This document shows positions 991 through 25,359 of a stretch of DNA of 32,034 bases, piece after piece. The stretch is from the NCBI GenBank assembly GCA_021787985.1, contig JAJYLG010000034.1, positions 1 to 32,034 of the forward strand, in the 5' to 3' direction. The translations under genes were made by a program, and so were the position numbers. Position 1 is the stretch's first letter; every line of letters begins with the position of its first letter. The notes under the pieces are model-generated. The model searched no databases. It was not told the origin of the DNA and saw only the letters and a program-made list of their open reading frames with translations. Source of the stretch: Chloroflexota bacterium (GTDB lineage Bacteria > Chloroflexota > Dehalococcoidia > DSGV01).

Positions 991-3900
991 CTATGCAGGC
1001 GTCATGTCGGCCGGCCGGTCCGCGACGAACTCCCGCAAGCCGCCCGGGCCAGGCTCGCTGACGATAAGCTCCCAAGCCACCAGCTCGAGATCGCGAATCG
1101 ACGGCTGGCGCGTCGCCGGCCGCTCCAGCGGGCGGTCGAGGCCCTCCGACTCGATCGCAGCCCACAAGTCCCGGAGCGCGGGCAGGAGCTCCTCCAGCTT
1201 TGCGCTCGTCCCGACGCGGTTAACGACGCGGACGGGGTCGATCATCGCGCGCCGACGGAGCGCGTCCGACGGGTGTGGCTGGTTCGCCCAATCGCCTAGT
1301 CGCTTCCACGTGAGCTCGTCGGCCTCCAGGAAGTCGTCCCGCTGGAGGAGCCGTTTGAGGCGCTTGACGAACGCATCGGGAGCCTGCGCGGCGATCGCCT
1401 GTTCGTAAGCGTTCCCGATCTGATGAACTGCCGCCTCCAGAGACTCGCGGAGATCGTGGAACGGGTTGACGTCGTCGCCGAGCGGGTGCCTCCGCTCATC
1501 GCGGCCGGCCGCGATGAGGTCGAGGACGTCGTTCGGCGACGTCACCGAATGCGCGGTGTCACCCAGCGGGAAGAACCGCCAGAACACCTCGCCGCTGACC
1601 TCCTCAGGCATGCGCAACATCAGGTAGATGCCCGATTGGCGGCCGCTCCTCACGCTGTACACGCCGTCCGGGATGTCCTGCAGCTCGCGGGTGGCCGTCA
1701 CTCTCATGATGTCGAGGTACTCGTTCAGCACTGCAAGACCCTCATCGAGGCCCTGGGTTCGTTCCCCCTCGAGGTACACTTCGTCGGCCCTCGCGCCGCC
1801 GCTGCGGAGCGTCATGATCTTGTCGAGCTCCCTCGCCTCGATCTGCTCACCGAGCACCGAAGCGTCAAGGGCCACTGCGTCCTCGATCGTCTCGAGCTTG
1901 CGCGTCAGGCTCCTGACGAGGCGCAGCAGGTCCTCCAGACCCTGTTCCGGCATGACGTTGTAGATGTAGACCTTGTCATGCGGCGAGTAGAGACGGTCGA
2001 TGCGCCCGGCCCGCTGGATCATGCGCACCGGGTTCCAGTGCAGGTCATAGTTGATCAGGTACTGGGCGTCCTGGAGGTTCTGCCCTTCGGACAGGACGTC
2101 GGTCGCGATCAGCAGGTCGACTCCTCCCTGGCGGAACGGCTGCACCCGTGCGGCGAGCTGAGGATCGTCCAGGGGCTCGGCGTCCCGGACCGCGGCGAGC
2201 GGGGCGAACCGCTGCAGCACGTCTTCGCGGCGGCGTCGGTCGTCGGTCCCGGTGAGAAGCGACATCCACGGACGGTCGCGCAAGTTGCTCTGCACGCGCG
2301 GCGCGCCGCTGCGCCGGAACTCGTCCGGCTCGCCACCCCCGAGCTGCCGAAAGAGGTACTCTGCCGTGTCGCGATAGTTCGTGAAGATCGCGACCTTCGT
2401 AGGAATACCGCGCGCGTCAGTCGCGGGCAGTCCTTCCAGGAGCTTGCGCACCTCTTGGGCCTTGGGGTCGCCCCGAGCGCCCCACATCTCCTCCAGCCGC
2501 CGCACATTGGAAAGCAGGTTCTTGAGCCGGTCGCGGTCCTCCTCAACGGCCGCCTGCAGCCGAGCGACCAGATCGGGGTCGCGCGGGGCCGGCCTGAGCT
2601 CACGGAGGGCTTCCAGCGCCCTGGGGTCCCAGTCTCCGGTCTCGAGCTCAGAGTCCGGCAGAGCGCCACCAAGCACGGCCCGCAACCGGTACGCCTGCTT
2701 CGGGGTTAGGACCCCGCCCTCGCCGAGTCGCGCCAAGAACAGGTCGAGGTAGCCCACCATCGAGCTGACCGTGCTCGTCAGTGCGGCAACCGAGCTCTCC
2801 ATGCGCTTCAGAAGGATCGTCCGCATGATCCCGACGAAGTTGGCGTTGCGCTGGCGCAGACGCTCCACGGTGTCACCCTCCCCCGTGTCGACCCCATACG
2901 ACTCGAGCTGATACACCGCGAAGTTGAGCTTCTGGACGGCGTCGACCACATCCTGGTAGATGCTGCCGTAGAGGTCCTGGAGGCTGTAGCCGACCGCCCG
3001 CGGGATCTCATGCTCCGGGAAGCGCATCGGCTGCCCGCCGACCTCCATCACCTCGCCGGCCTTCTGCATCGCGCGGATGTCGTGGCGCGTGCGCCGCACC
3101 AGGCTCAGCATCATGGTGTCGAGGAGACCGGCGCCCCCCTCGCCTTTCTCCACCGCCCGGAACGTGCTGCGCAGGTCCGCCACCGGCCCACGACCGGCGT
3201 ACCAGGTGTCGTCTCCGCGCGTGATGAGCATGAGCTGCGTGTAGAGGTCCCAGACGGAGTTGTTGACCGGGGTGGCGGTCAGCAGGACGACGCGTTTGTC
3301 GGGCTTACCATCGCGAACGATCTCCATCAACGCCCGGTAACGCTTTGTCTGACTGTTGCGGAAGTTGTGGGACTCGTCGACGAGCACGATGTCGAAGTGG
3401 TCCTGGTAGTGCCGAAGACGCCGCTCTCGCCGCGCCCGGTCCAGCGGGCTCGTGGCTTCGTCGACGTCGACAACAAGCTGGGCGAGCGACTCCATCGTCA
3501 CGGTCTCGGCCGAGACGCCGTACTGGACGAGCTTCTCTTGGCTCCAGTTGCCCTCGAGCTGGGCGGGACAGACGACCAGGGCGGAGACGCGGCCGTCCCG
3601 GCGCCGGGCGAACTCGCCCAAGATCCCGAGACCCTCGTACGTCTTCCCCAGACCGACCGAGTCGCACAGCATCGCCCCCCAGTGCCGCTCGAGCAGTGCG
3701 ACGCAGCGCTGGACAGCGTGCTGCTGGAAGCCGGCCAGGCGCTCGGCGATGTCTTCCGAGAGCCCCAGCTCGAGGAAGCGCCCGTAGGCCGCGTGCAGCG
3801 ACTTGATGAACACCTGCCAGGGCGTGTAGCGCCGTCCGAAGAGGACGCACTCCTCGAGGCGCCGGATGAACTCGCCCTTGCAATCCTGGCCTTCTTCCCA

Positions 3901-4584
3901 CTTGCGGTCGAACCAGCCCGCTAATCGCGTGGCAAGAGCGTCGTCCGACGAGACGAGGTTCAGCTCGACGTTCTGCTGGAGGCCGCCCTTCGTCAGGTTG
4001 CTCGAGCCGACGGCCGTGAACTGCGCGTCGGGGCCGCTGAGAATGTAGGCCTTCGCATGGAGCCGGGCCCGCGGGGACCTGTGGTCGAGCACCTTCCCGG
4101 GCTCAACCTTCCCCGCGTCGTCTCCCAGGAAACGGCGGACCTCGACGGCGTCGCGGCGAAGGAAGTCCGCTAGCGCGCGCACACGCTCCCAGGCGCTGAG
4201 GTCGAACGCCGACTTGGCCGGGTCTTCGCCGCGGCGCAGCAGCTCCGCCCGCTCCTGGTGCGTCAGCAGCAACCACGGGTAGCCGCCCTCGAGGAACGTG
4301 TACCAGTCGACGGACTCCGCTGGCCCCCGCAGCTCGTCCTCCTCCCCCGGCTGACCGAGCACGTCGGAAGGACCGCGCCGGTTGAGGAAGGGCCGCTCGC
4401 CCAGGAGCAGCCGAACGGTCTGGGCGCCGCCCAGCCCGTTTTTCAGCGTGAGGAAGCCATCCGGCGTGAGGTAGGCGGTGGCGATGCGCACCCGTTCCGG
4501 CCGGACGCGCAGCAACGCTGCCAGCAGGTGTTGCTCCGTGGAGCCGGTCGACGGGTCGTTAGCGATCACCGCCAGGTCAAGCAT
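991..4584 (-). CDS. PLD nuclease-like domain fused to SNF2/DEAH helicase (defence protein)
   Basis: A two-part protein of 1,197 aa. The N-terminal third is a phospholipase-D-like domain with one HKD-type signature: HAKAYIL (about residue 176) followed by GSSNLTKGG (about 193). The rest is an SF2 helicase of the SNF2/HepA type: Walker A DSVGLGKT (308-315), DEAH box as DESH (403-406), motif III TATP, and in the second RecA lobe SEGQNLQDA and QRAGRIDR (857-864). ATG 4584 was chosen over an upstream ATG at 4614 because it overlaps the stop of the toxin gene by 8 bases, and the alignable N-terminus begins there. Fused or adjacent PLD and SNF2-type proteins occur in DISARM, Mokosh and several unclassified methylase-linked defence operons. 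The likely job is ATP-driven DNA or RNA translocation with nucleolytic attack on invading nucleic acid; that role is inferred. Confidence 0.87.
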   Translation of the reverse strand: MLDLAVIANDPSTGSTEQHLLAALLRVRPERVRIATAYLTPDGFLTLKNGLGGAQTVRLLLGERPFLNRRGPSDVLGQPGEEDELRGPAESVDWYTFLEGGYPWLLLTHQERAELLRRGEDPAKSAFDLSAWERVRALADFLRRDAVEVRRFLGDDAGKVEPGKVLDHRSPRARLHAKAYILSGPDAQFTAVGSSNLTKGGLQQNVELNLVSSDDALATRLAGWFDRKWEEGQDCKGEFIRRLEECVLFGRRYTPWQVFIKSLHAAYGRFLELGLSEDIAERLAGFQQHAVQRCVALLERHWGAMLCDSVGLGKTYEGLGILGEFARRRDGRVSALVVCPAQLEGNWSQEKLVQYGVSAETVTMESLAQLVVDVDEATSPLDRARRERRLRHYQDHFDIVLVDESHNFRNSQTKRYRALMEIVRDGKPDKRVVLLTATPVNNSVWDLYTQLMLITRGDDTWYAGRGPVADLRSTFRAVEKGEGGAGLLDTMMLSLVRRTRHDIRAMQKAGEVMEVGGQPMRFPEHEIPRAVGYSLQDLYGSIYQDVVDAVQKLNFAVYQLESYGVDTGEGDTVERLRQRNANFVGIMRTILLKRMESSVAALTSTVSSMVGYLDLFLARLGEGGVLTPKQAYRLRAVLGGALPDSELETGDWDPRALEALRELRPAPRDPDLVARLQAAVEEDRDRLKNLLSNVRRLEEMWGARGDPKAQEVRKLLEGLPATDARGIPTKVAIFTNYRDTAEYLFRQLGGGEPDEFRRSGAPRVQSNLRDRPWMSLLTGTDDRRRREDVLQRFAPLAAVRDAEPLDDPQLAARVQPFRQGGVDLLIATDVLSEGQNLQDAQYLINYDLHWNPVRMIQRAGRIDRLYSPHDKVYIYNVMPEQGLEDLLRLVRSLTRKLETIEDAVALDASVLGEQIEARELDKIMTLRSGGARADEVYLEGERTQGLDEGLAVLNEYLDIMRVTATRELQDIPDGVYSVRSGRQSGIYLMLRMPEEVSGEVFWRFFPLGDTAHSVTSPNDVLDLIAAGRDERRHPLGDDVNPFHDLRESLEAAVHQIGNAYEQAIAAQAPDAFVKRLKRLLQRDDFLEADELTWKRLGDWANQPHPSDALRRRAMIDPVRVVNRVGTSAKLEELLPALRDLWAAIESEGLDRPLERPATRQPSIRDLELVAWELIVSEPGPGGLREFVADRPADMTPA

Positions 4585-4972
4585 GGAAGTCGAAGCCGCT
4601 GGGTATGTCAACATAATGTTGTGAGAGGCACAGGATGTTTACCGTGTCGTCGACGGTGTGGCCGTCGGCGCAACAATCCAGGGTAAACTCACCCCGCGCA
4701 GGGGCGCCCACCTTTGGTTGCCTCATTTCCTCTGCGCGGCACTCGGCGCAGACGCGGTAGATCAGGCGCACGTCGTCAAGCACGCGGGCGCTGCGCAAGC
4801 CCCAGTAGCGGTAGCGCAAACGTTCGGCTCCCGCGGCCGCGTACGGGTCCTTCAGCAGCTCCTCGACGCGGCGCTCGATCCGCTGCCGGCGGGAGCGGTA
4901 GAGACGGTCGCCGAGCTGGTCGACGTACTCGCGCGACCGGCGCACGACCCAGCCAGACCGCTCAGCCGACAC
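4577..4972 (-). CDS. RelE/ParE-superfamily toxin with Cys-rich insertion
   Basis: A 131-aa protein that reads as a RelE-fold toxin: an N-terminal strand (WVVRRSREYVDQL), two helices (RIERRVEELLKDPYAA), then the core LRYRYWGLRSARVLDDVRLI. This matches the usual pattern in which G-x-R-x-x-R-V precedes R-x-x-Y. The final strand is NILCLSQHYVDI. Between the last two strands lies an insertion of about 35 residues with CAEC, then DCC and a histidine, which looks like a metal site and is not usual in RelE. The start is taken as GTG 4972, which overlaps the antitoxin stop by 11 bases; an ATG at 5026 would overlap it far more. The stop overlaps the helicase ATG (ATGCTTGA). Known RelE proteins cut mRNA on the ribosome, while ParE relatives inhibit gyrase; which applies here cannot be told. 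Confidence 0.68.
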   Translation of the reverse strand: MSAERSGWVVRRSREYVDQLGDRLYRSRRQRIERRVEELLKDPYAAAGAERLRYRYWGLRSARVLDDVRLIYRVCAECRAEEMRQPKVGAPARGEFTLDCCADGHTVDDTVNILCLSQHYVDIPSGFDFHA

Positions 4973-5615
4973 GCACCCGGCCGGACCGAAAGTCCTCGAC
5001 CGCACGGCGCAATGGTACGTCGGCACCGGGGCTGAGCGTCAGCGCGAGCGTCTCCAGCCAGCCGCTATCGATCTGGAGCGCAGCGCGCGCCTCGCCCAGC
5101 GGCATCGGCGCGAGCAGCTCCGTGCCCTCCACGATCGCCTCGATCGGGAGCTCCTGTTCGCTGCCCAGCGGGCGAACGCGCATGGCATAGACGGACCTGA
5201 GCAGCGCACCCGTGGACGGGTCTGGCTGCCATTCCGCGGCGACCCCGTCGATGACCGCCCGCACGAGCGCGTTGGGCTCGTCCCGCAGCACCTCGTCGTA
5301 GAAGGCGCGCGCCAGCCTCTCGCCCGCCCGCGTGAAGACGAAGTGCTCTTCCTGGTTCACAAGACCGGCCGCCTCGAGCATGCCCCACGTCTCGTAGACG
5401 TCGTTGGACAAAGGTCCCCACCTCCAGCGATAGAACGAGAGGGTGAGCGCCCGGACTCGTTCCTCCTGGAGACGAAAGGCAGCGAGGAAGGCGAGCTTCA
5501 TCTGGCGCAGCTTGTCGCCGGCGTCCTGGCTCGGGTCCTGGGCGCACCGCGCCCACAGCGCCAGCAGCAGGGTGGCGTCGACACACCGTTCCTCCAAGGT
5601 CCGAACCGCGCTCAT
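4962..5615 (-). CDS. Panacea/SocA-like antitoxin
   Basis: A 217-aa soluble protein. The middle, KLRQMKLAFLAAF followed by FYRWRWGPLSNDVYETWGML, resembles the Panacea (SocA/GepA, DUF4065) domain, where K-L-x-K-L-x-[FY] is followed by an aromatic-rich strand with a G-P turn. A winged-helix-like stretch (EAAGLVNQEEHFVFTRAGERLARAFY) comes next. Panacea proteins are known as interchangeable antitoxins paired with many toxin folds. The gene has a strong ribosome site (GAGGAGG, about 8 bases before ATG 5615) and overlaps the downstream RelE-like gene, the usual antitoxin-first order. It stands directly after a relic of the helicase 5' end. The domain call is by eye and moderately sure; the TA interpretation depends on both partners. 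Confidence 0.55.
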   Translation of the reverse strand: MSAVRTLEERCVDATLLLALWARCAQDPSQDAGDKLRQMKLAFLAAFRLQEERVRALTLSFYRWRWGPLSNDVYETWGMLEAAGLVNQEEHFVFTRAGERLARAFYDEVLRDEPNALVRAVIDGVAAEWQPDPSTGALLRSVYAMRVRPLGSEQELPIEAIVEGTELLAPMPLGEARAALQIDSGWLETLALTLSPGADVPLRRAVEDFRSGRVRVG

Positions 5616-5675
5616 AACGGCGCCTCCTCTCCCACGACTCTACACGACGACCGCTTGGCCACGTACAGGCTAGCG

Positions 5676-5837
5676 TCAGTGCGCGACAGATCGTGACGTA
5701 CGCCCGGGGCCAGCCTGCGGCGCGAGATGGTTGAGGGCGGTCGGCACAGCCCGGACGCGCAGCAGCGCCACCAGCGGCTGCTGCTCCTTGGAGCCCGTGA
5801 TCGGGTCGTCGGCGACCGGGACGGCCAGCCGACCCAC
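5676..5837 (-). pseudogene. Relic of the 5' end of a PLD-SNF2 helicase gene
   Basis: A 53-codon frame from GTG 5837 to TGA 5676. Its residues encoded at 5828-5751 (LAVPVADDPITGSKEQQPLV then ALLRVR) align with residues 4-28 of the intact helicase (LAVIANDPSTGSTEQHLLAA then LLRVR): 18 of 25 positions match with one gap. Similarity stops sharply after RVR, and the frame runs into unrelated sequence and a stop. It lies 10 bases after the 160-aa gene, exactly where the helicase would be expected in a methylase / 160-aa / helicase operon. The best reading is a leftover of an earlier helicase copy cut off when the Panacea-RelE-helicase block arrived. The alternative is that the short frame is still translated as a leader. 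Confidence 0.7.
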
Positions 5838-5847
5838 GGATTCCTGC

Positions 5848-6330
5848 TCAGCTTCCCGGGATCGCCCATGTCTCCAACCGGTTTCGAGCGACTACCTTTT
5901 CCACGCCGCCGCCCGTGACCCGGAGAGATCTGTTTTGCTCCAACCGCACGGTGATGGATTGCTGCTCTCTCTGCGCGCCCGCAGGTACCAGATGCCGGAG
6001 CTCAGCCGGTTCGACGAGGCAGATTTCCTGTCCCCTAGCGTCGACGGTTTGGTCGCCACAGACCAGGGCAACCCAAGTGCTCCCAGACCGGACCCGAGAG
6101 AGTTGGTCCCCGGAGAAGACGAACGTCCAGCTCCGTCCGCGAGAGGGCGGTTTGAGCGGTCTGGGTTTCTTACTGTGCTTCACGAGGAGTTCTACTTCAT
6201 CGTTAATCCGATAGATTGCCCACTCGGTGTTGGGCTTCGTCTCGATCATGCGGAGGGTGACCGGCTTGTCGTTGCGCACGATTTTCGCTAGGACCGCACC
6301 GTGAAACAGTTCGAACTCTCTAACTGACAT
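5848..6330 (-). CDS. Unrecognised 160-aa protein of the defence operon
   Basis: I do not recognise the family. The protein starts MSVREFELFHGAVLAKIVRN and continues with strand-rich segments (TLRMIET, EWAIYRINDEVELLVKHS, SWTFVFSGDQL, TWVALVCGDQTV, ICLVEPAEL), which suggests a compact mixed alpha/beta or beta-barrel fold. There are no membrane segments and no metal-binding cluster. ATG 6330 is chosen because GGAGAGGG stands 4 bases upstream; the frame upstream of it is arginine-rich noise. It lies between the methyltransferase and the helicase, so it is probably a dedicated subunit of that system. Local base composition drops to about 50% GC (for example 6181-6240) against roughly 70% in the flanking housekeeping genes, a sign of horizontal acquisition. 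Its role is unknown. Confidence 0.72.
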   Translation of the reverse strand: MSVREFELFHGAVLAKIVRNDKPVTLRMIETKPNTEWAIYRINDEVELLVKHSKKPRPLKPPSRGRSWTFVFSGDQLSRVRSGSTWVALVCGDQTVDARGQEICLVEPAELRHLVPAGAQREQQSITVRLEQNRSLRVTGGGVEKVVARNRLETWAIPGS

Positions 6331-6379
6331 GAACCCTCTCCATCTCCTGCGGCCTGAACACCTGCTCCCGGTTCCCGGC

Positions 6380-6463
6380 CTAGCCGCGCCGGAACTCCGC
6401 CAGGATGTAGCCGTTCCGCTCGACTTCGCCAATTGGCTCCTGGACCGCTAGCTATGTTGCCAT
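6380..6463 (-). pseudogene. Relic small frame with in-frame TAG after the methylase
   Basis: ATG 6463 shares one base with the methyltransferase stop (TGATG), the usual sign of a translationally coupled gene, but the frame reads M-A-T and then TAG. After that stop it continues for 23 good-looking codons, LAVQEPIGEVERNGYILAEF then RRG, with high-GC third positions, and ends at TAG 6380-6382. It looks like the remains of a very small coupled gene, or a short piece of one, lost by a nonsense change. No known family is evident. It may also be chance. Confidence 0.35.
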
Positions 6464-9400
6464 CAGCCTTCCTCCTCGTCGCCACCTTCGTCTTCCGCCG
6501 TGCCGGCAGCGAGGCTCCTGCGACGGAACCACTCATCGATAACGGAACCTTGCTCCGCGGAAAGCCCGTAGAGGGAACGGACTGCGGCTTCGATGGCTCT
6601 TTCTCCCTGCGAGTCCCCATCGCACCCATTCATCTCACGGACTAGTCCTCGTGCCTCGGCGTCGCCCGGGACGACCAGCGGCAAGCGACGCACAAAGTGG
6701 TCGTACAGCTGCAGGAATCCACCGCGGAGCTGACTCGTGATCATACAAAGGAGGAATTCGACGAGCTCAGAGTTGAGAACTGCCAATGACCACGTTGGCG
6801 CGTCCGCCCAGAAATAGCATTTGTTGTTGAGGTAGACGCCGGCGTCCGCGTAGCAAGACCGAATTCGCCTGGCGAACTCCGGCCACACCACCTTCGGCCG
6901 CTCGAACTCCCGGTAGTAGGAGCAAGAGCGTAGCTCCCACCAGAAGCGCCCCTGATCGGCCCGCGGACGTAGCCTGGCCTCGTAGCGGCTGAGATGATCG
7001 TGGATCAGCGGGTACGTGCTGGCGAAAGTGCGCCGCGCCTCGGCCTCGGTGCGAGCTTTGGCCCACGGGTTGCTCGCGTCTCCGTCGCCGCTGTTCTGGA
7101 CCGCGATGACGTACAGCCCCGCCCACTGGGGCCGCCAGCGCTTGATGTCGCGGCCGCGCAGCCACGGCTTGATCAGCTCCGACGAGCGCGGGTCCGCCGC
7201 GATCAGTTCCGCCCGCTTCGCCGCGTCGATGACGAAGGCCTCGTTCAGGCCAGTCTTGATGCCGTAGTACATGCGGCCCTGGACGAGCTCCCCCAGTGGC
7301 CTGCCCTGCGACATCAGCCGCTCGAAGAGCCGCACCAGCGCAGGGTCCTCCAGTATCCAGCCCCCCTTCTTCAGGAGGACCTGCGGGTAATCCGCTACCT
7401 GTGTGGCCTCGATCAGGACCTCCATATCCTCCAGCGCTTCCCGCACCGTCTCCGGATTGACGCGCTTGCCGGCGTCGTCCAGGGCGCGCCGGACCGGATA
7501 GGTCAAGTCAACGACGCCCAGTCTGTGTTCCGACGAGGCAGCCCCCTCACTACCGACGGAGACGACGGGATAGGCCGCCACGGCCTTGCCGTTCGCCTCG
7601 AATAACGGCAGGTCGCCGAAGTCGACGACGCGTTCCAGGGCCAGCGCCTGGGGCAAATGGGCCCGGATGCGCTCCCCATAGCCGGCGCGCATGTACTTGT
7701 TGCTGGTGATGAACGAGAGCCAGCCGCCGTCGCGCAGGATCTGAATCGCCCGCGCGTAGAAGTAGACCAGGATGTCTGCGGTGCCCGTGTGGACCTCCGG
7801 GAAGGCCTGCGCGTATACTTGTTGGTCCCCCGCCGCGAGCTTCTCCTGTCGCACGTATGGCGGGTTGGCGAGCACGATGTCGAACCCGCCGTGCTGGAAG
7901 ACCTCCGGGAACGCCACTGGCCAGAGAAACGGCTTCTGGTAGGGTGCGTCGGGGCGCAGTCCTCCGATGAACCGTTCGATCTGTTCGACCCGCATCCGGG
8001 CGTGGGCCAGCCCTCGCGCACGTCGCTGCTGCGCTGCCCGCGTGTGCCCGCCCCGCGGCCGGCTGCTGCTGCCTCCGCCTCCCGTACAGAGTCGCGCGCC
8101 CCCTCCAGGTGTGTTTCCAGGTGGTAGCGGATGATGCGTTGCTCGGCGCGAGCGATGTTGTCTCGCAGCACGCGCAGCCGCTGCGGGTTCTCCTGCGTCG
8201 CTTCGAACTCGCGGCGCCACTGTTCGATGTTCCGTTCCTCTCGACCCACGCGGTCCCGCAACTCAAGGTGGGGCTGGTAGACGCCGCGCGGTAGCGACTC
8301 GGCGAAGGGAATGCCAGCGGCCCGGTCGATCAGCGAGTCGCCCGCCACAATGCGGAAGTCCAGGTTTGGCAGCGGCTCGCTGTCCCGCGGCCCGGGCTCG
8401 TCCAGCACCAATGAGAGCCACAGCCGGAGTTGGCAGATCTCGACCGCCTCCGGGTTGATGTCGACCCCGTACAGGCTCCACTGGATGGCGCGCCGTTTCC
8501 ATTCGGCGACACGCTGGTCGGCCAGCTCCGTAAAGCCCTGCTTCGCGTGCGCGATGCCGCGACGCATCAGCACGATCTCCTGCATGGCGCCGAGGAGGAA
8601 TGCGCCAGAGCCGACGGCCGGGTCGCAGATGCGCACGTTCTCCAGCGCCTCGATCAGGCTGCGCTCCGTGTCCCCGTCCAGGTGGCGCTCGTCACCATCC
8701 GGCTCCATGACCAGGCGACGCAGCCAGTCGATCGTCTCCTGGTCGACGCCGACGGTGTCGCGCAGGTAGCCATCGAGCACCTGGCGGCACATGAAATGGA
8801 CGATCTCGCGCGGCGTGTAGTAGGTGCCGGTATCGTGGCGCTCGTCGCCCTGGTAGAGGTTCTCGAACACCCGGCCGAGCACCTCCGGGTCGGGGTCGAC
8901 CGACTGATCGTCCGGGGTGGACTCGCGCGTGGTGAAGCGGTAGCGCGAAAGCAACCAGAGAACGCTGTTCTCCTGGTCCGGGTCAAACACGTCGTCGGGC
9001 AGGGCGATCTCGCCGCCGCCTTCGATACGATCTTCGAGGGCGTTCGGCCGGAACAGCCCACCGTTGAGGTACGGAGTGTACTCCAGCAGCTCCTGGACCT
9101 CCCGGCGGCAGTTGCGCTTGGCCATGGCTTCGAAGAAGAGCGGCACGAGGAAACCGCGATAGAAGCCCCCTTGAACGCGGTGCCTCCGCTCCCACAACCA
9201 GCGCAGGTAGCCGGGCCGGCCACCGCCGGCGCCGCTGCCGCCGAGCCAACCTTTGGACTGCAGGAACCAGAGGAACAGGATGCGGCCGAGCTGGCGGGTT
9301 GCCCAGGCGCTCCGGTCGTACCCGGAGAGCGCGCCCACCGCCGGGTGCTCCGGGTTCGCGTCCAGAAGGGACTGCGCGAGGCGGTCCCGGACGCCTGCGT

Positions 9401-10010
9401 ACTCAAGATAAAACCGCTTGGTCACGCGCTCGACGCTAAACGCCTGCCCCCACTGCCGGGAGATGGCCGCGAGCGACGAGGCGGCGGCGATCACGAGCTG
9501 TTGAAGCAACTCTCGGTGAAAGCGGTTCGGTTCACGGACGTCGATGAGCGCGCGGACTGTCGTAATCGCGCCGCGGCCCGCCCCACCATCCGCCCGCTGG
9601 GCAGCTCTCGGAAACACCATCTCAACTTCAGGCCGAGAGGCCCGCTGAAGCTCGTTCGGGACCAAGAAGAACAGCACCCTGCCGTCGGGCACGTGCTCGA
9701 CGAGCGCCCGCGCCACGCGGCGCCGCGCCCGGTCACGGTCCGAAGATCGCTGGCCCCAATCGTCCAGCACCGCCACGTAGAGGGCCGCGCTGCCGGGGTC
9801 GGCCGCGCGATGGGCCACGCGGTAGAGCTCGCGGACACCGAAGCTATCCGGCCGCTGGAGGAAGAAGCTGCGAAGCGCGGTGAGGCCGTGGAGGAGGTCG
9901 GTGGGCGTGCGCACTGGCTCGAAGCCGACGACCCGGGCGAGAGAATCAGCTCGGCGAGGATCGCCTCCGAACGATTGGAGCGCGTTGGCGATCTCGCCCA
10001 GGTCCGGCAT
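6463..10010 (-). pseudogene. Eco57I-type DNA N6-adenine methyltransferase, frameshifted
   Basis: Two overlapping frames together spell one protein of about 1,182 aa. The first (ATG 10010 onward) has an N-terminal helical region, then TGTYYTPREIVHFMCRQVLD, SAM-binding motif I ICDPAVGSGAFLL (about residue 461) and YGVDINPEAVEICQLRLWLS. The second begins near LAHARMRVEQIERFIGG and holds the catalytic motif IV NPPY (7856-7867), SFITSNKYMRAGYGERIR and a C-terminal TaqI/Eco57I-like target-recognition region. The switch lies between about 8100 and 8005. The span of 3,548 bases is one short of a multiple of three, fitting a single missing base, perhaps in the G/C run near 8010-8020. ATG 10010 follows GGGGGA. 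Such enzymes methylate adenine for host protection or in fused restriction. If the shift is real, motifs I and IV are separated and the enzyme is dead. Confidence 0.8.
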
Positions 10011-10045
10011 GCCGTCCCCCACGTGTGCCCAGCTTGATGGCCATG

Positions 10046-16425: not shown

Positions 16426-16597
16426 GGCACCCGCTGATCGCCGCGAACGCCTGACTCAAAGAGCCACGGACGCCCGCCCTCGGGCGCGGCATCTTCTGAA
16501 ATTAGGATAACGAGCGCGTAACTTTTTGCCCCGGGCGAGCGTTGTAGTGAACGGGGGTCGTTCGGCGCTCGGACACGGGCCGCACGGAGGATCGGTG

Positions 16598-17641
16598 ATG
16601 CGCGGGTGGAAGCGGGTATGGCCCGCGTCGGCGGCGACGATGGTGCTGGTACTGGCCGCCGCGTGCGTCGCTGGAGCATCGCCCGCCGCAACGACCGCAC
16701 CGGCCGGTTCCGTAGCCAGCGTCGAGGGCTCCCCGCGGGCGCCCGTCGCCTCGCCGGCGTCGCCTTCATCAGTCCCGACCCCTGCGCCCACTCAGGCGCC
16801 TCCTACCCCCACGCCCGCGGATCCGGACCCTGCGCTTACCCCTGACATGGTCGCGCTCGGCCAACGCCTCGCCGATGCGGTCCGATCGATGCGCGGCGAG
16901 GTGGCCGTCTCCGTTGTCGACCTGCAGACCGGCGAGGCCGTGGCCGTCAATGGCGACCGGCAGCAGATGGCCGGCTGCTCGGACAAGATCTACATCATGA
17001 TGACGCTGGCAAAGGCGATCGCCGCCGGCGAGATGCGAGAAGCCGACGTCCACGCGGACGTTCTGGAGATGATGGGTCCCAGCGAGACCCCGCCGGCCCG
17101 CCGCATCATCGCTCGCCTCGGGAACGGCGACGTCGCCGCGGGCCTGCGCCGCGTCAACGCGATGACGCGGGCGGTCGGCGCGGCGCGCTCCATCATGACG
17201 CACCCGCCCGGCTACTACGGCGAGGAGTATGGCTACGAGGTCGAGACCGGCATCATCGACAACCTGGTGACGACCAACGACTACAACCGCGCGCTGGCGA
17301 CGTTGTGGAAGACCGACTTCTTCACGCCGTCGGAGCGCGAGTACATCCTGTGGAGCATGACCATCGCCTCCATCCCGCTTGGTCACCACAAGGGCATCCA
17401 GCTCCCCCTCTGGGGCAACCCGGACGCCACCGTCTACCACAAGCCGGGCGGGATGTTCGAGCCGGACAACACCTGGGCCGACACCGGCATCATTGCCTTC
17501 ACGGTGAATGGCCACCGCTACGCCTACGCGATCTCCGTCCTCGCCCAGCACACGTCGGTCATCTGGGAATCACGAGCGTACGCCGCTCGGCTCTCCGCGC
17601 TGGCCTGGGAAACGATGGCCGCACGCTACGAGTATCGCTAG
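16598..17641 (+). CDS. Beta-lactamase-fold lipoprotein with Cys in place of active-site Ser
   Basis: A 347-aa exported protein. The signal peptide MRGWKRVWPASAATMVLVLA ends in a lipobox, LAAAC (Cys23), followed by a Pro/Ala/Thr/Ser-rich linker to about residue 80. The remainder aligns with the class A beta-lactamase / serine hydrolase 2 fold: VAVSVVDLQTGEAVAVNGD, then the helix carrying the nucleophile, GCSDKIYIMM, where the S-x-x-K serine position is Cys127 and the lysine is Lys130. The SDN-like site reads SET (about 162-164) and the KTG-like site reads KPG (about 282). ATG 16598 is supported by GGAGG 7 bases upstream. All three motifs are altered, so ordinary beta-lactam hydrolysis is doubtful; a thiol enzyme or a binding protein are the alternatives. 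Confidence 0.7.
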   Translation: MRGWKRVWPASAATMVLVLAAACVAGASPAATTAPAGSVASVEGSPRAPVASPASPSSVPTPAPTQAPPTPTPADPDPALTPDMVALGQRLADAVRSMRGEVAVSVVDLQTGEAVAVNGDRQQMAGCSDKIYIMMTLAKAIAAGEMREADVHADVLEMMGPSETPPARRIIARLGNGDVAAGLRRVNAMTRAVGAARSIMTHPPGYYGEEYGYEVETGIIDNLVTTNDYNRALATLWKTDFFTPSEREYILWSMTIASIPLGHHKGIQLPLWGNPDATVYHKPGGMFEPDNTWADTGIIAFTVNGHRYAYAISVLAQHTSVIWESRAYAARLSALAWETMAARYEYR

Positions 17642-20639: not shown

Positions 20640-23600
20640 CTATCCCCAACTCTTGCCCTCCGGCGTGAGCAGGGCCGCGTCCGGCGTCAGCGGACGCAAC
20701 GCGCGGGCGTGCACCATCGGTACCTGACCGGCGTGACCCTCGAGCAGTCCACGCACGCGCAGGAACGGGCTGGTACGCACCGCGACTCGTTCCCGCTCGT
20801 ACAGCTTGGACGGGACCAGCACGTTCACCATGCCAAACTCGTCTTCCAGCAGCAGGAAGACGATCCCCTTCGCCGTGCTCGGCCGCTGCCGGCAGACCAC
20901 CAGCCCCGCGACGTCCACCACCTGCCCCGGCTCCAACGCCTGCAGGTGCCGCGACGAGCGCACCCCCTCGCCCAGCCTCAGGCGCAGGAACTTCATCGGG
21001 TGCGAGTCCGGCGAGAGCCCCAGCACCTCGTAGTCCGCCGCCATCCGCTCGTACGGCGTGAAGTCCTCCAGCGGCACCTCATCCTGCTCGGTCGGCAGCG
21101 CCAGGCGGAGCTGGTGTGCGGGCGACGGCCCACTGAGCCGGGCCCGCACCAGCCCCGGGCCTTGCAGCCCGAGTTGCCAGAGCAGCTCACGCCGATTCAG
21201 CCCGAACTCGTCGAACGCGCCCACCCGCACCAGGCTCTCCACCGCCTCGCGCCGCAGCCCCGTGCGGTGCGCCAAGTCCGAGAGCGAGCGGTACGGCCCG
21301 ACTCGCGCTCGCTCGGCCGTGATGGCGGCCGTGCCAGCCCGTCCGACGCCCTGCGCGTAGCCGAGGCCAATGCGCACGGCGTCGCCCTCGACCGTGCACT
21401 TCGCCGCGCTGCGGTTGATGTCCGGGCGCAGCACCTCCACACCGTGGCGCCGCGCGTCGTTGGTGAAGACGTGCGGTGGATAGAAGCCCATCGGCCAGTT
21501 GTTGTAGAGCGCACAGTAGAACTCGACGGGGTAGTACTCCTTCAGCCAGGCCGACTGGTACGCGAGCAGGGCGAAGGCGACGGCGTGGCTCTTGGGAAAG
21601 CCGAACTCGGCGAAGCCGAGCAGGCTCTGGAAGACCGCCTCGGCCGTCTCCCGCAGGACGCCCCGCGCCACCGCCCCGCTGATGAAGCGCTCCTCGTAAG
21701 CGGCCATCGCCTGCCGCGAGCGCTTGCGGCTCATCGAGCGGCGGAAACCCTCGGCCTCGCCGGCGCTGAAGCCGCCCATCGCCATCGCCACCTGGATCAC
21801 CTGCTCCTGGAAGAGCACCACACCCAGCGTCTCCTCCAGCGCCTCGCGCACGCACTCGTGCGGCACCTCCGGCACGTAGGCGGGATCCTGCCGCTGGGCC
21901 TCGCGCCGGCGCACGTACGGATTGACCGCGCCGCCCACGATCGGGCCGGGCCGCACGATCGCCACCTCGGTCGCCAGATCGTCGAGCGATCGCGGCCGTG
22001 TGCGCGGCAGCATCTGCGCCTGGGCACGCGACTCGATCTGGAACACGCCCACCGTGTCGCCGCTGCAGATGCGGTCGTAGACCCGCTCGTCGCCGAAGTC
22101 GATGCGCGAGAGGTCCACCAGCACGCCGCGGTGCTCGGCCACCAGGTCCAGGCACTCCTCAACGTGGGAAAGCATCCCCAGCGCGAGGAAGTCGATCTTC
22201 ACCATGCGCGCGTCGTCGACCGAGTCCTTGTCCCAGTGGCAGACGTAGCGGCCCGGCCAGGCGGCCGGCTGCACGGGCACGCATTCCACCAGCGGGTCGG
22301 AGGCGATCACCACACCGCCGACGTGCTGGGAGAGGTGACGGGGGAAGTCGGCCAGCTCGCCGGCCAGCTCCACCAGCTCGCGCCAGCCGGGCGCATCGGC
22401 CAATCCGCCACCGGCGGAGAAACCGGGCGCGCGCAGCATCTCCTCGCGCACGTCGCGGGCCGAGCCGTAGCTCTCGGCGAACTTCGCCAGTCGGTCGACC
22501 TCGCGCGGCGGCAGGCCCAGCGCCTTGCCCAGGTCGCGGATGGCGCTGCGGATGCGGTACGTCGGGAAGGTGGCCACCAGCGCGGCGTGGTCCGCTCCCC
22601 AGCGCTCGTAGACTCGCTCGAAGAGCCGCTCGCGGATATCGCGCGGGAAGTCCAGGTCGATATCCGGCAGGCTCTGCATCTCCTCGTTGAGGAAACGCCC
22701 GAGAAAGAGCCGGTTACGCACCGGGTCGATGTGCGACAGCCCGATCAGGTAGCAGACGATGCTGCCCACGCTCGAGCCCCGTCCGCGGCCGGGCGGCAGG
22801 CTGGTACGGCCACGCGGAGCACTCCCGCGCACCTCGGCCGCCACCTCGCGCGCCAGCTCCAGCACCTCGTGATAGACGAGGAAGAAGCCCGCCAGCTCGT
22901 GACGCGCGATGAGCCCCAGCTCCTCCGCCAGCCGCGCCTCAGCCGCGGGCCGCTCGTGCGAGGCGTACTTCTCCCGCAGCGCCCGGCGACACAGCTCTGC
23001 CAGCCACGAGTCGGGCGTGTGCCCCTCCGGCACGGGAGGCGTCGGCAGCCGATAGTCCAGCTCCTCCGCCAGGTCGAAGGCGCAGCGATCGGCGATGCGG
23101 CGCGCGTTCGCCACCGCCGTCGCGAATGCGGCAAAGCGCGCCGCCTGCTCCTCCGGCGCGCGCAAGAAGAACTCGCTATTCGGCCGCCGCAGCCGGTGAC
23201 TCGCGTCGAGCGTGGTGCAATGCTTGATCGCCACCAGCGCGTCCTGGAGCCGGTGACGCGCGCGGTCGTGGTAGTGCACGTCGCCGGTCGCGACGACGCC
23301 GACGCCGCAGCGGGCGGCGAGGGCGGCGAGCGCGCGGTCCCGCGGCCCGTCGCCATGGACCAGGTTGTCCTGCAGCTCCACGAAAACGCTCTCCGGCCCG
23401 AACCACCCGATGAGCCGGCGCAGTATGGCCTCGGCCGTCCCGGCGTGGCCTGTCGTGGCGAGCCTCGCCAGCTCGCCGCCGCGGCAGCCGGCCAGGCAGA
23501 TCAACCCGTCCGCGTGACCGGCCAGCCGCGCGAGCGGAAGGCATGGGTCGCGCCGCCGCCGCTCGCGGTCGGCCTGTGCGGGCAGGTCGTGGCCGCTGGC

Positions 23601-23939
23601 CAGGCTCACCAGCCGGCAGAGGTTGCCGTAGCCCCGTCGCGACTCTGCCAGCAGCACCAGGTGGTCGCGCGAGCCCTGGTCCGGATCCTCGGCCACCGTC
23701 AGCTCCACGCCCGTGATCGGGCGGATGCCGCGCGCCTTACACGCCTGGGCGAAGGCCATCGCGCCGTACAGGTTGTCGTGGTCGCTGATGGCCAGCGCGT
23801 CGTAGCCCAGCTCGATCGCGCGGTCGATCAGCTCTTCGGGATGCGAGGCGCCCTCCAGCAGCGAGTAGTTCGTGTGCAGATGGAGCTCCACGTACGGAGC
23901 CTCATCGCCTCCGCCTTGCTTCAGTACCGCTGCATCCAC
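20640..23939 (-). CDS. dnaE2: Error-prone DNA polymerase III alpha subunit
   Basis: A 1,099-aa C-family polymerase. It opens with the PHP domain (YVELHLHTNYSLLEGASHP, DALAISDHDNLYGA), then the palm with the catalytic aspartates in PDIDLDFPRD (Asp428, Asp430) and KIDFLALGML (Asp583), the finger region (GFPKSHAVAFALLAYQSAWL), a helix-hairpin-helix and an OB domain (VDVAGLVVCRQRPSTAKGIV). Length and the lack of a beta-binding tail fit DnaE2 rather than replicative DnaE1. With ImuB it makes the damage-induced mutagenic polymerase. Possible starts are GTG 23939 (GGAGG 7 bases upstream, chosen), CTG 23924 (overlapping the upstream stop as CTGA) and GTG 23891. The conserved tyrosine before VELHLH argues against the last one. 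Confidence 0.93.
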   Translation of the reverse strand: MDAAVLKQGGGDEAPYVELHLHTNYSLLEGASHPEELIDRAIELGYDALAISDHDNLYGAMAFAQACKARGIRPITGVELTVAEDPDQGSRDHLVLLAESRRGYGNLCRLVSLASGHDLPAQADRERRRRDPCLPLARLAGHADGLICLAGCRGGELARLATTGHAGTAEAILRRLIGWFGPESVFVELQDNLVHGDGPRDRALAALAARCGVGVVATGDVHYHDRARHRLQDALVAIKHCTTLDASHRLRRPNSEFFLRAPEEQAARFAAFATAVANARRIADRCAFDLAEELDYRLPTPPVPEGHTPDSWLAELCRRALREKYASHERPAAEARLAEELGLIARHELAGFFLVYHEVLELAREVAAEVRGSAPRGRTSLPPGRGRGSSVGSIVCYLIGLSHIDPVRNRLFLGRFLNEEMQSLPDIDLDFPRDIRERLFERVYERWGADHAALVATFPTYRIRSAIRDLGKALGLPPREVDRLAKFAESYGSARDVREEMLRAPGFSAGGGLADAPGWRELVELAGELADFPRHLSQHVGGVVIASDPLVECVPVQPAAWPGRYVCHWDKDSVDDARMVKIDFLALGMLSHVEECLDLVAEHRGVLVDLSRIDFGDERVYDRICSGDTVGVFQIESRAQAQMLPRTRPRSLDDLATEVAIVRPGPIVGGAVNPYVRRREAQRQDPAYVPEVPHECVREALEETLGVVLFQEQVIQVAMAMGGFSAGEAEGFRRSMSRKRSRQAMAAYEERFISGAVARGVLRETAEAVFQSLLGFAEFGFPKSHAVAFALLAYQSAWLKEYYPVEFYCALYNNWPMGFYPPHVFTNDARRHGVEVLRPDINRSAAKCTVEGDAVRIGLGYAQGVGRAGTAAITAERARVGPYRSLSDLAHRTGLRREAVESLVRVGAFDEFGLNRRELLWQLGLQGPGLVRARLSGPSPAHQLRLALPTEQDEVPLEDFTPYERMAADYEVLGLSPDSHPMKFLRLRLGEGVRSSRHLQALEPGQVVDVAGLVVCRQRPSTAKGIVFLLLEDEFGMVNVLVPSKLYERERVAVRTSPFLRVRGLLEGHAGQVPMVHARALRPLTPDAALLTPEGKSWG

Positions 23940-24178
23940 CAGCCGCCCTCCACCAAGTCGCGGTACACCGTCACGGCCCGGCCGTCCTCCAGCACGAGGC
24001 GAAAGTACTGCCGGGAGAGCGGCCCGCCCGCGGTCGACCGCCACCACTCGTCGTCGACGCGCCAGGTCTCGTCCACCGAAGCCACCGTGTGCCGCCGCCC
24101 GCGGAGCACCACCGCGCGCGGGGCTCCGCCGGCGCCTGTCTCGACCTCCGTCCGTCGGAGACGGACCGGCTCGTTCAG
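23921..24178 (-). CDS. DUF6504-like small protein of the mutasome cassette
   Basis: An 85-aa protein between imuB and dnaE2. It is strand-rich with a conserved tryptophan core: LRGRRHTVASVDETWRVDDE, WWRSTAGGPLSRQYFRLVLE and the end TVYRDLVEGGWWMQRY. This resembles DUF6504, a small family often found beside Y-family or DnaE2 genes in high-GC bacteria. No ATG or GTG precedes the conserved part. The frame begins naturally at CTG 24178, whose CTG and the imuB stop form CTGA, the same layout as ATGA coupling, so a CTG start is proposed. It probably assists the ImuB-DnaE2 complex in a role like ImuA', but this is inferred from position. Confidence 0.68.
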   Translation of the reverse strand: MNEPVRLRRTEVETGAGGAPRAVVLRGRRHTVASVDETWRVDDEWWRSTAGGPLSRQYFRLVLEDGRAVTVYRDLVEGGWWMQRY

Positions 24179-25359
24179 AGGTCGAAGTCGATGAGCGCCA
24201 GCCGCCGTTCGGGGATCCGGCTCCATGGCTCCACCTCCACCACCCGGCCCACCGGGCAGTGCCCGTAGCGCGCCTTGAGCTGACGCAGACTCTCCTCGAG
24301 CTGCTCCTGGAGGCGGCCGTGCGCCGAGAGCAGCGCGGCCTGCCGCCCGCGCTCCGCCGTGAGCCCGGACAGCTCCAACTCCAGCTCGCTCACCATCCCG
24401 GGAAGCTGCGCCTCGGCTAGGGCCGTCTTCACCACCAGCCACAGCCGCGCGCGCTCGCAGAGCGCCTCACGAAAGGTCAGCGTCCGCTCCCAGCGACCGC
24501 CGCGCTCCGTCGCGACGCGCAGCGTCACCTGGCGGACGGCCCGTCCGCGCACGGCCGGCTGACGCAGCGCACGGCTCAGCGCCTGTTCGGCGGCCACAAG
24601 CACCGCCTCGCGGCTGGCCAGCGGTGGCGCGAACGCGAGACGTTCCACGACCCGCTCGTGCCATGGTCGCGGGCGCAACGGTTCACGGTCCTCCCCGCGC
24701 GCCAGATCCCATGCCCGCCCGCCCTCGGCGCCCAACTGCGCCGCCACCGCCGACCGTGGCAGCGCCGCCAACCGGCCAAGTGTCTCGATTCCGAGCAGGC
24801 GAAGCCGGCGCAGTGTCTCGGCGGGAAGCTGCAGCAGCTCCACCGGCTGGCGCACCAGGAACGGCGCCACCGCCTCCTCGTTGAGCACGCAGGTCTCCGC
24901 CGGCATGGCGTGATGCGCCGCGACGAGCGCGGCGAACTTGCTCGGCGCGATCCCCAGCCGCGGGCCGAGCTCACGCGGCGCGGCGCCGAGCAGCGCGGCC
25001 GCCAGGGCCTCGGGCGAACCGTAACAGCCCCCAAGACCGCGCAGGTCGGCGTAGGCCGTGCCCTGCGGCCCCGGCTCCACCGCGGGAGCCACACGCTCCA
25101 GCGCGTCGAGGATCGCCTCGACCACCGCCTGGTAGCGCGCCGGGCGCGCCTCGATCACGGCCAGCAGCGGGCAGCGAACGAGCGCCTCACGCAACCGCTG
25201 ACCAGCGACCACCCCACTGCGCTCGGCCGCGGGCGAAGCGGCCCACACCAGCGGGCCGTCCGGCCGCGTCACCACGGCGGGTCGCTCACGCAGGTCGGGC
25301 CGCTCGACCAGCTCGCAGGCGAGCGGGAAACGGGGAACCAGGAGGCACGCCACCGCCAT
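24175..25359 (-). CDS. imuB: ImuB-like Y-family DNA polymerase homologue
   Basis: A 394-aa protein of the Y family, ImuB subgroup. It starts MAVACLLVPRFPLACELVER, where active Y polymerases have an Asp and F-[AS]-x-V-E, and reads TAYADLRGLGG where they have S-x-D-E; the catalytic acids are therefore missing, as in known ImuB. The thumb and helix-hairpin-helix (LRRLRLLGIETLGRLAALPR, SAVAAQLGAEG) and a little-finger region follow. ImuB is an inactive scaffold that links DnaE2 to the beta clamp during translesion synthesis. ATG 25359 is chosen because GAGG stands a few bases before it and the conserved strand begins at once; an upstream in-frame start at 25461 would run through the promoter and LexA-type box. 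It is first in the operon with the DUF6504-like gene and dnaE2. Confidence 0.86.
   Translation of the reverse strand: MAVACLLVPRFPLACELVERPDLRERPAVVTRPDGPLVWAASPAAERSGVVAGQRLREALVRCPLLAVIEARPARYQAVVEAILDALERVAPAVEPGPQGTAYADLRGLGGCYGSPEALAAALLGAAPRELGPRLGIAPSKFAALVAAHHAMPAETCVLNEEAVAPFLVRQPVELLQLPAETLRRLRLLGIETLGRLAALPRSAVAAQLGAEGGRAWDLARGEDREPLRPRPWHERVVERLAFAPPLASREAVLVAAEQALSRALRQPAVRGRAVRQVTLRVATERGGRWERTLTFREALCERARLWLVVKTALAEAQLPGMVSELELELSGLTAERGRQAALLSAHGRLQEQLEESLRQLKARYGHCPVGRVVEVEPWSRIPERRLALIDFDL

Follow-up and report, generated by a model that had tools for sequence, protein, structure and literature searches.

The gene described here encodes a predicted lipoprotein, modeled with the class A β-lactamase/PBP-A fold, in which a cysteine (Cys127) stands at the place of the catalytic serine, Ser70. 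Its relatives, mainly from Dehalococcoidia (Chloroflexota) and about 30% identical to it, share the cysteine. In our estimation the chances are about evenly balanced that the protein is a cysteine-armed, PBP-A-like cell wall peptidase or acyltransferase, working through a thioester intermediate and lipid-anchored outside the membrane.

Gene, fold and motif register

The gene lies in a 32,034-nucleotide stretch of DNA, analyzed whole and called the window below, from a genome (G000) of 3.5 Mb in 189 contigs that is 95.6% complete. Its open frame spans 16526-17641, and the ATG at 16598, from which residues are numbered, is the likely start (Table 1). By this numbering Cys127 is encoded at 16976-16978 and Lys130 at 16985-16987, with Ser128 and Asp129 between, and Lys282-Pro-Gly at 17441-17449. 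The lipobox (LAAAC, with Cys23) was a pattern spotted by eye. GC content by codon position (0.65/0.55/0.88) is similar to that of the two neighboring genes (0.74/0.53/0.88 and 0.74/0.49/0.91). The upstream neighbor encodes a cation-efflux transporter, the downstream one a GAF/PAS hybrid histidine kinase; neither has an evident link to the gene.

Table 1. Positions of the Cys-type gene and its features in the window
Feature	Position	Strand	Basis or detail
Cys-type class A β-lactamase-fold predicted lipoprotein gene	16598..17641	+	347 aa; open frame; Pfam Beta-lactamase2 45.5 bits, cut-off 22
GGAGG, likely ribosome-binding site, 7 bases upstream of ATG	16586..16590	+	sequence; inference
Predicted signal peptide ending at lipobox Cys23 (LAAAC)	16598..16666	+	sequence; inference by eye
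Linker rich in Ala/Pro/Ser/Thr	16667..16831	+	sequence
Core domain, class A β-lactamase/PBP-A fold	16832..17638	+	AlphaFold pLDDT 91.0, pTM 0.90; LRA-5 8eo7_B match
C-S-D-K: Cys127 at Ser70 place, Lys130 at Lys73	16976..16987	+	alignments
S-E-T: Ser162 at Ser130 (conserved), Thr in place of Asn132	17081..17089	+	alignment rows
T-H-P-P, omega loop: His202, Pro203, Pro204; one proline at Glu166 place	17198..17209	+	alignments
H-K-P-G: Lys282 at Lys234	17438..17449	+	H, K, G in 45/45 readable Cys-type rows

Elsewhere in the window, a gene at 991-4614 (-) combines PLD (HKD) and SNF2 helicase domains, with HKD+Snf2 as its top PADLOC match. Overlapping frames at 6463-8220 (-) and 7503-10022 (-) match consecutive parts of type IIG restriction-methyltransferase models and look like a single gene broken by a frame change; together with the HKD+Snf2 gene they look like a small defense island. 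A 1161-residue open frame at 20709-24194 (+) lies opposite a 1135-residue frame at 20640-24047 (-), and the plus-strand frame had no Pfam or NCBIfam match at E 0.001.

The original prediction of a class A β-lactamase fold was borne out by structure prediction and overlay. The AlphaFold model of the core, built with 36 aligned sequences (mean pLDDT 91.0, pTM 0.90), found its best solved match in LRA-5 (8eo7_B; Z 30.3, rmsd 2.1 Å over 235 residues) and also matched PBP-A (2j9o_D; Z 28.7, rmsd 2.2 over 237 residues). A model of the family member L034, which carries C-x-x-N (31 sequences; pLDDT 97.5, pTM 0.94), matched 8eo7_B at Z 31.6 (rmsd 2.0 over 232 residues). With Z scores of 28.7-31.6 against LRA-5 and PBP-A, the two models indicate that the window core and L034 share the class A β-lactamase/PBP-A fold. 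The sole Pfam family found in the window protein at E 0.001 was PF13354 Beta-lactamase2 (45.5 bits against a cut-off of 22), whose match covers residues 183-314 and leaves the nucleophile motif outside; no L,D-transpeptidase (YkuD) domain was found by Pfam at that threshold. The NCBIfam model bla_class_A scored the window protein at 19.6 bits, below its 200-bit cut-off, and matched 31 rows of our alignment at E 0.001, including L034 at 36.2 bits.

Two alignments set Cys127 at the Ser70 place, as had been claimed. In phmmer, C-S-D-K of the window protein aligned with S-T-I-K of 3cjm, and the family profile placed the cysteine at Ser70 of LRA-5 and the +3 residue at Lys73 (the N-terminal stretch alone is weak, i-Evalue 0.01-0.03). 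C-S-D-K, S-E-T and K-P-G are thus class A motifs in register, the latter two being the counterparts of S-D-N and K-T-G, and K-P-G retains the lysine and glycine. In the model the cysteine (core residue Cys49) sits at the start of helix 48-64. With an open frame, a sound register and a cysteine common to relatives, the observation of Cys-x-x-Lys in this fold holds. Class A enzymes rely on Glu166 to activate the water for deacylation. Its place is taken by Pro204 in alignments with 6nvu, 5tfq and 6v4w, given the residues of these chains that we take to be Glu166, and by Pro203 according to LRA-5. The window protein has the fold and Lys73 of class A enzymes and lacks Ser70, Asn132, Glu166 and K-T/S-G; the missing Glu166 deprives it of class A β-lactamase status by motif.

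A cysteine family in Dehalococcoidia

A search of 119 genomes with the window protein gave matches in 22, its own genome counted. Ten loci in nine other genomes, every one with the cysteine, matched at E 1.2e-22 or better; those weaker matches that were read were of Ser-type or linker kind. A profile built from nine of the ten strong loci was then run on named genomes, for which the scan patterns did not include the cysteine, so that this search did not select for it. It returned 38 loci, comprising L027-L060 of Cys type (L039 starts past the site) and the Ser-type L061-L064 from Myxococcota. The same profile matched in 64 of the 393 genomes of the class. A scan of the phylum gave matches in 204 of 400 genomes, and among 25 loci from other classes (L097-L121) all 24 that could be read were Ser-type. 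No closer kin of the window protein was found in a genome-contig scan with the window core alone. A mobile origin of the Cys-type gene was rejected, as two viral-contig scans, plasmids and phages yielded no relatives.

Removal of identical and contained rows left a final set of 118, with the nucleophile readable in 103: S-x-x-K in 55, C-x-x-N in 44, C-x-x-K in two, and C-x-x-M and C-x-x-S in one each, where the number of Ser-type rows is no census because they were drawn from matches of Cys-weighted profiles. C-x-x-K occurs, among the 48 Cys-type rows, only in the window protein and one partial relative (L136). The lysine at +3 is lost in 46 of the 48 (Asn 44, Lys 2, Met 1, Ser 1) versus none of 55 Ser-type rows, and this comparison did not support Lys130 as a fixed partner of the cysteine, a point raised with the original observation. 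Since labeling rows as Cys-type by their cysteine is circular, the fair count is that of a group recovered with the trait columns masked. In that tree the C-x-x-N group held 45 rows (support 92/60), and the cysteine is present in all 44 that are readable. This retention by homologues fits a thiol acyl-enzyme, one of two readings first offered for Cys127, better than a decayed remnant. The presence of cysteine in every readable family member points to a switch of catalytic chemistry that arose in nature, of a kind we otherwise encountered only in engineered enzymes. As 45 of 48 Cys-type cores contain a single cysteine, there is no shared disulfide partner inside the core.

A few members depart from the common pattern. 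In L130 and L131 the Cys-type domain ends proteins of about 800 residues, with NHL/YNCE β-propeller matches in L130 and a similar appearance by eye in L131; both have two extra core cysteines. Two Cys-type contigs bear other taxonomic labels, Woykebacteria for L032 (46.7% GC) and Acidobacteria for L048, which adjoins L037 in the tree; these labels may reflect transfer or misbinning.

Order of the active site changes

Four kinds of active site can be set side by side: L133 (genome G139) with S-V-I-K, S-N-D (off by one column in the profile alignment) and T-H-H-P; L136 (G288, cut by a contig end) with C-T-I-K, S-N-N and T-H-A-P; the window protein with C-S-D-K, S-E-T and T-H-P-P; and the main family with C-x-x-N and mostly D-H-x-P. 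The series reads like an earlier change from serine to cysteine and a later one from lysine to asparagine, an order that the trees back in part only. With the trait columns included, all Cys rows fell on one side of a starred branch (98/96), the window protein branching first and the rest grouping at 88/48. Masking these columns lowered the all-Cys split to 93/76, and the starred split (97/87) now separated C-x-x-N rows from the window protein plus Ser rows. When L133 and L136 were added to the masked tree, the window protein, L133+L136, the Ser-type L032b and L013/L014 formed an unresolved base beside the C-x-x-N group. There L136, with its cysteine, paired weakly (85/82) with the serine-bearing L133, which allows for two origins of the cysteine or a reversal; a single Cys clade was not rejected by the AU test (p 0.292). 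L136 had been considered as the closest relative of the window protein (42% in a three-row alignment) and was dismissed, as the tree puts L133 nearest to it; its highest identity among tree rows is 39%, to L035. The window branch is long and isolated, at 1.4-1.7 changes per column, and the window protein may thus itself be decaying.

Proposed function and its alternatives

A penicillin-binding transpeptidase (PF00905) is encoded in all 41 tabulated Cys-bearing genomes, whereas in the class as a whole 169 of 393 genomes have one. The hypergeometric value of 4e-17 is an overstatement, since the 41 genomes represent ten family codes and the co-occurrence follows lineages rather than 41 independent events. 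Among genomes with weaker or partial matches, 21 of 23 have PF00905, including G141 and G288, which are of Cys type. At L032 the Cys gene is flanked on one side by a gene for a polysaccharide deacetylase with a similar N-terminal region and on the other by a Ser-type paralogue of the β-lactamase fold; the three-gene run extends over 4893-8540. No gene neighborhood function was common to the whole Cys-type family. In the L049-L060 sub-branch, neighbors are common to many loci, those of L059 being two FAD-linked oxidases, an Fe-S protein and an FGGY kinase; these glycolate-oxidase-like genes, conserved in one sub-branch and not of cell wall type, were taken as unrelated.

Several known systems bear on function. 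L,D-transpeptidases have a fold unrelated to the β-lactamase fold. They carry a natural cysteine nucleophile, as the window protein would, and LdtMt2 is described as acting on the cell wall (PMC6391942). PBP-A of Thermosynechococcus (2j7v, 2j9o) resembles the window protein in fold (Z 28.7) and in lacking the omega-loop glutamate, and is reported to be a D,D-carboxypeptidase and endopeptidase; it differs in its serine nucleophile, S61 (PMC11189452), where the window protein has cysteine and most relatives C-x-x-N. The class A β-lactamase precursor LRA-5 (8eo5-8eo7), the top structural match, also lacks Glu166, having Val166, and its activity is described as biologically insignificant, a property that the authors link to Tyr69 as well as to the missing Glu166 (PMC12777564). 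LRA-5 differs in that Ser70-Lys73, S-D-N and K-T-G are all intact. Engineered S70C variants of OXA-48 and KPC-2 place cysteine at position 70 of a serine β-lactamase fold, as in the window protein, and hydrolyze and fragment penicillins, explained by their authors through a thioester (PMC6391942); this turnover shows such chemistry to be possible. They are laboratory mutants of an otherwise serine-type site, whereas the window protein is natural and its surroundings have changed too. Searches of open-licence papers turned up no cysteine branch of the class A β-lactamase/PBP-A fold that is natural.

The loss of Glu166, the comparison with LRA-5 and PBP-A, the co-occurrence with PF00905 and the context of L032 therefore favor a wall enzyme, peptidase or acyltransferase, that works by way of a thioester. 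The lipid anchor and flexible linker would hold the predicted lipoprotein outside the membrane. There the thiol of Cys127, kept reactive by the helix N-terminus and the Ser162-Lys282 pair, would attack a peptide-type bond of the cell wall by D,D-peptidase or acyltransferase chemistry, as in PBP-A, to yield a thioester acyl-enzyme that water or an acceptor amine would resolve. Lys130 may be an extra base still present in the window protein and replaced by Asn in most relatives.

The same residues could belong to a non-catalytic descendant whose cleft binds wall peptide or another ligand, with the cysteine kept for packing or binding. Loss of Lys73 (46 of 48 Cys-type rows) and Asn132 (47 of 48, kept in one) and the absence of Glu166 count against catalysis and would also suit a binding protein, and the long branch of the window protein points the same way. 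However, the motif serine equivalent to Ser130 is present in 48 of 48 Cys-type rows and H, K and G of H-K-x-G in 45 of 45 readable ones; the serine, the His-Lys pair and the glycine are invariant across 43 long rows. Their joint retention with a cysteine, a rare residue yet present throughout the masked-column group (44 of 44 readable rows), is unexpected under drift, and we regard the non-catalytic reading as unlikely, though a serious one. A redox switch, in which the cysteine would be oxidized or bridged to lysine (N-O-S type) to turn the protein on or off, appears improbable. Lys130 is one helix turn from Cys127, Lys282 belongs to the same motif set and Lys-Cys NOS bridges have been termed ubiquitous (PMC8964421), but a bridge to Lys130 cannot be the family function when only two of the 48 Cys-type rows retain that lysine.

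Slightly more improbable still is a papain-like site, a Cys-His-Asn set completed by the omega-loop histidine (T/D-H-x-P) and the Asn of C-x-x-N. The histidine does mark the family, being present in 43 of 48 Cys-type versus 6 of 55 Ser-type rows, 16 of which are gapped there. Yet profiles with 6nvu, 5tfq and 6v4w place it at position 164, as does the V166E mutant of LRA-5, and LRA-5 itself at 165; position 164 points away from the cleft. Tyr also replaces the histidine in L130 and L131, and T-H-x-P occurs in the Ser-type L133. That Ser128, which does follow Cys127 in the window protein, is the true nucleophile of an ordinary β-lactamase after a one-residue slip has next to no probability, since the +1 residue varies over the family (T 23, V 19, S 4, I 1, L 1) and the alignments set the cysteine at Ser70.

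A thioester-forming wall enzyme would touch on a wider question. That cell wall D,D-enzymes rely on serine but L,D-enzymes on cysteine is said to lack an explanation, and S70C mutants have served to explore the point (PMC6391942). A natural lineage with a serine-to-cysteine switch, a re-tuned site and possible intermediates still alive would make this question testable by comparing relatives, and could reveal wall enzymes with a different response to β-lactams. We tentatively propose, at less than even confidence, that a thiol branch of the serine D,D-peptidase/β-lactamase superfamily exists naturally in Dehalococcoidia, made up of thioester-forming wall enzymes in which nucleophile, base and omega-loop glutamate have all been replaced, the steps from L133 through L136 and the window protein to C-x-x-N possibly being kept in living sequences. 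If so, these β-lactamase-fold enzymes would form a class whose response to β-lactams is probably unlike that of serine enzymes.
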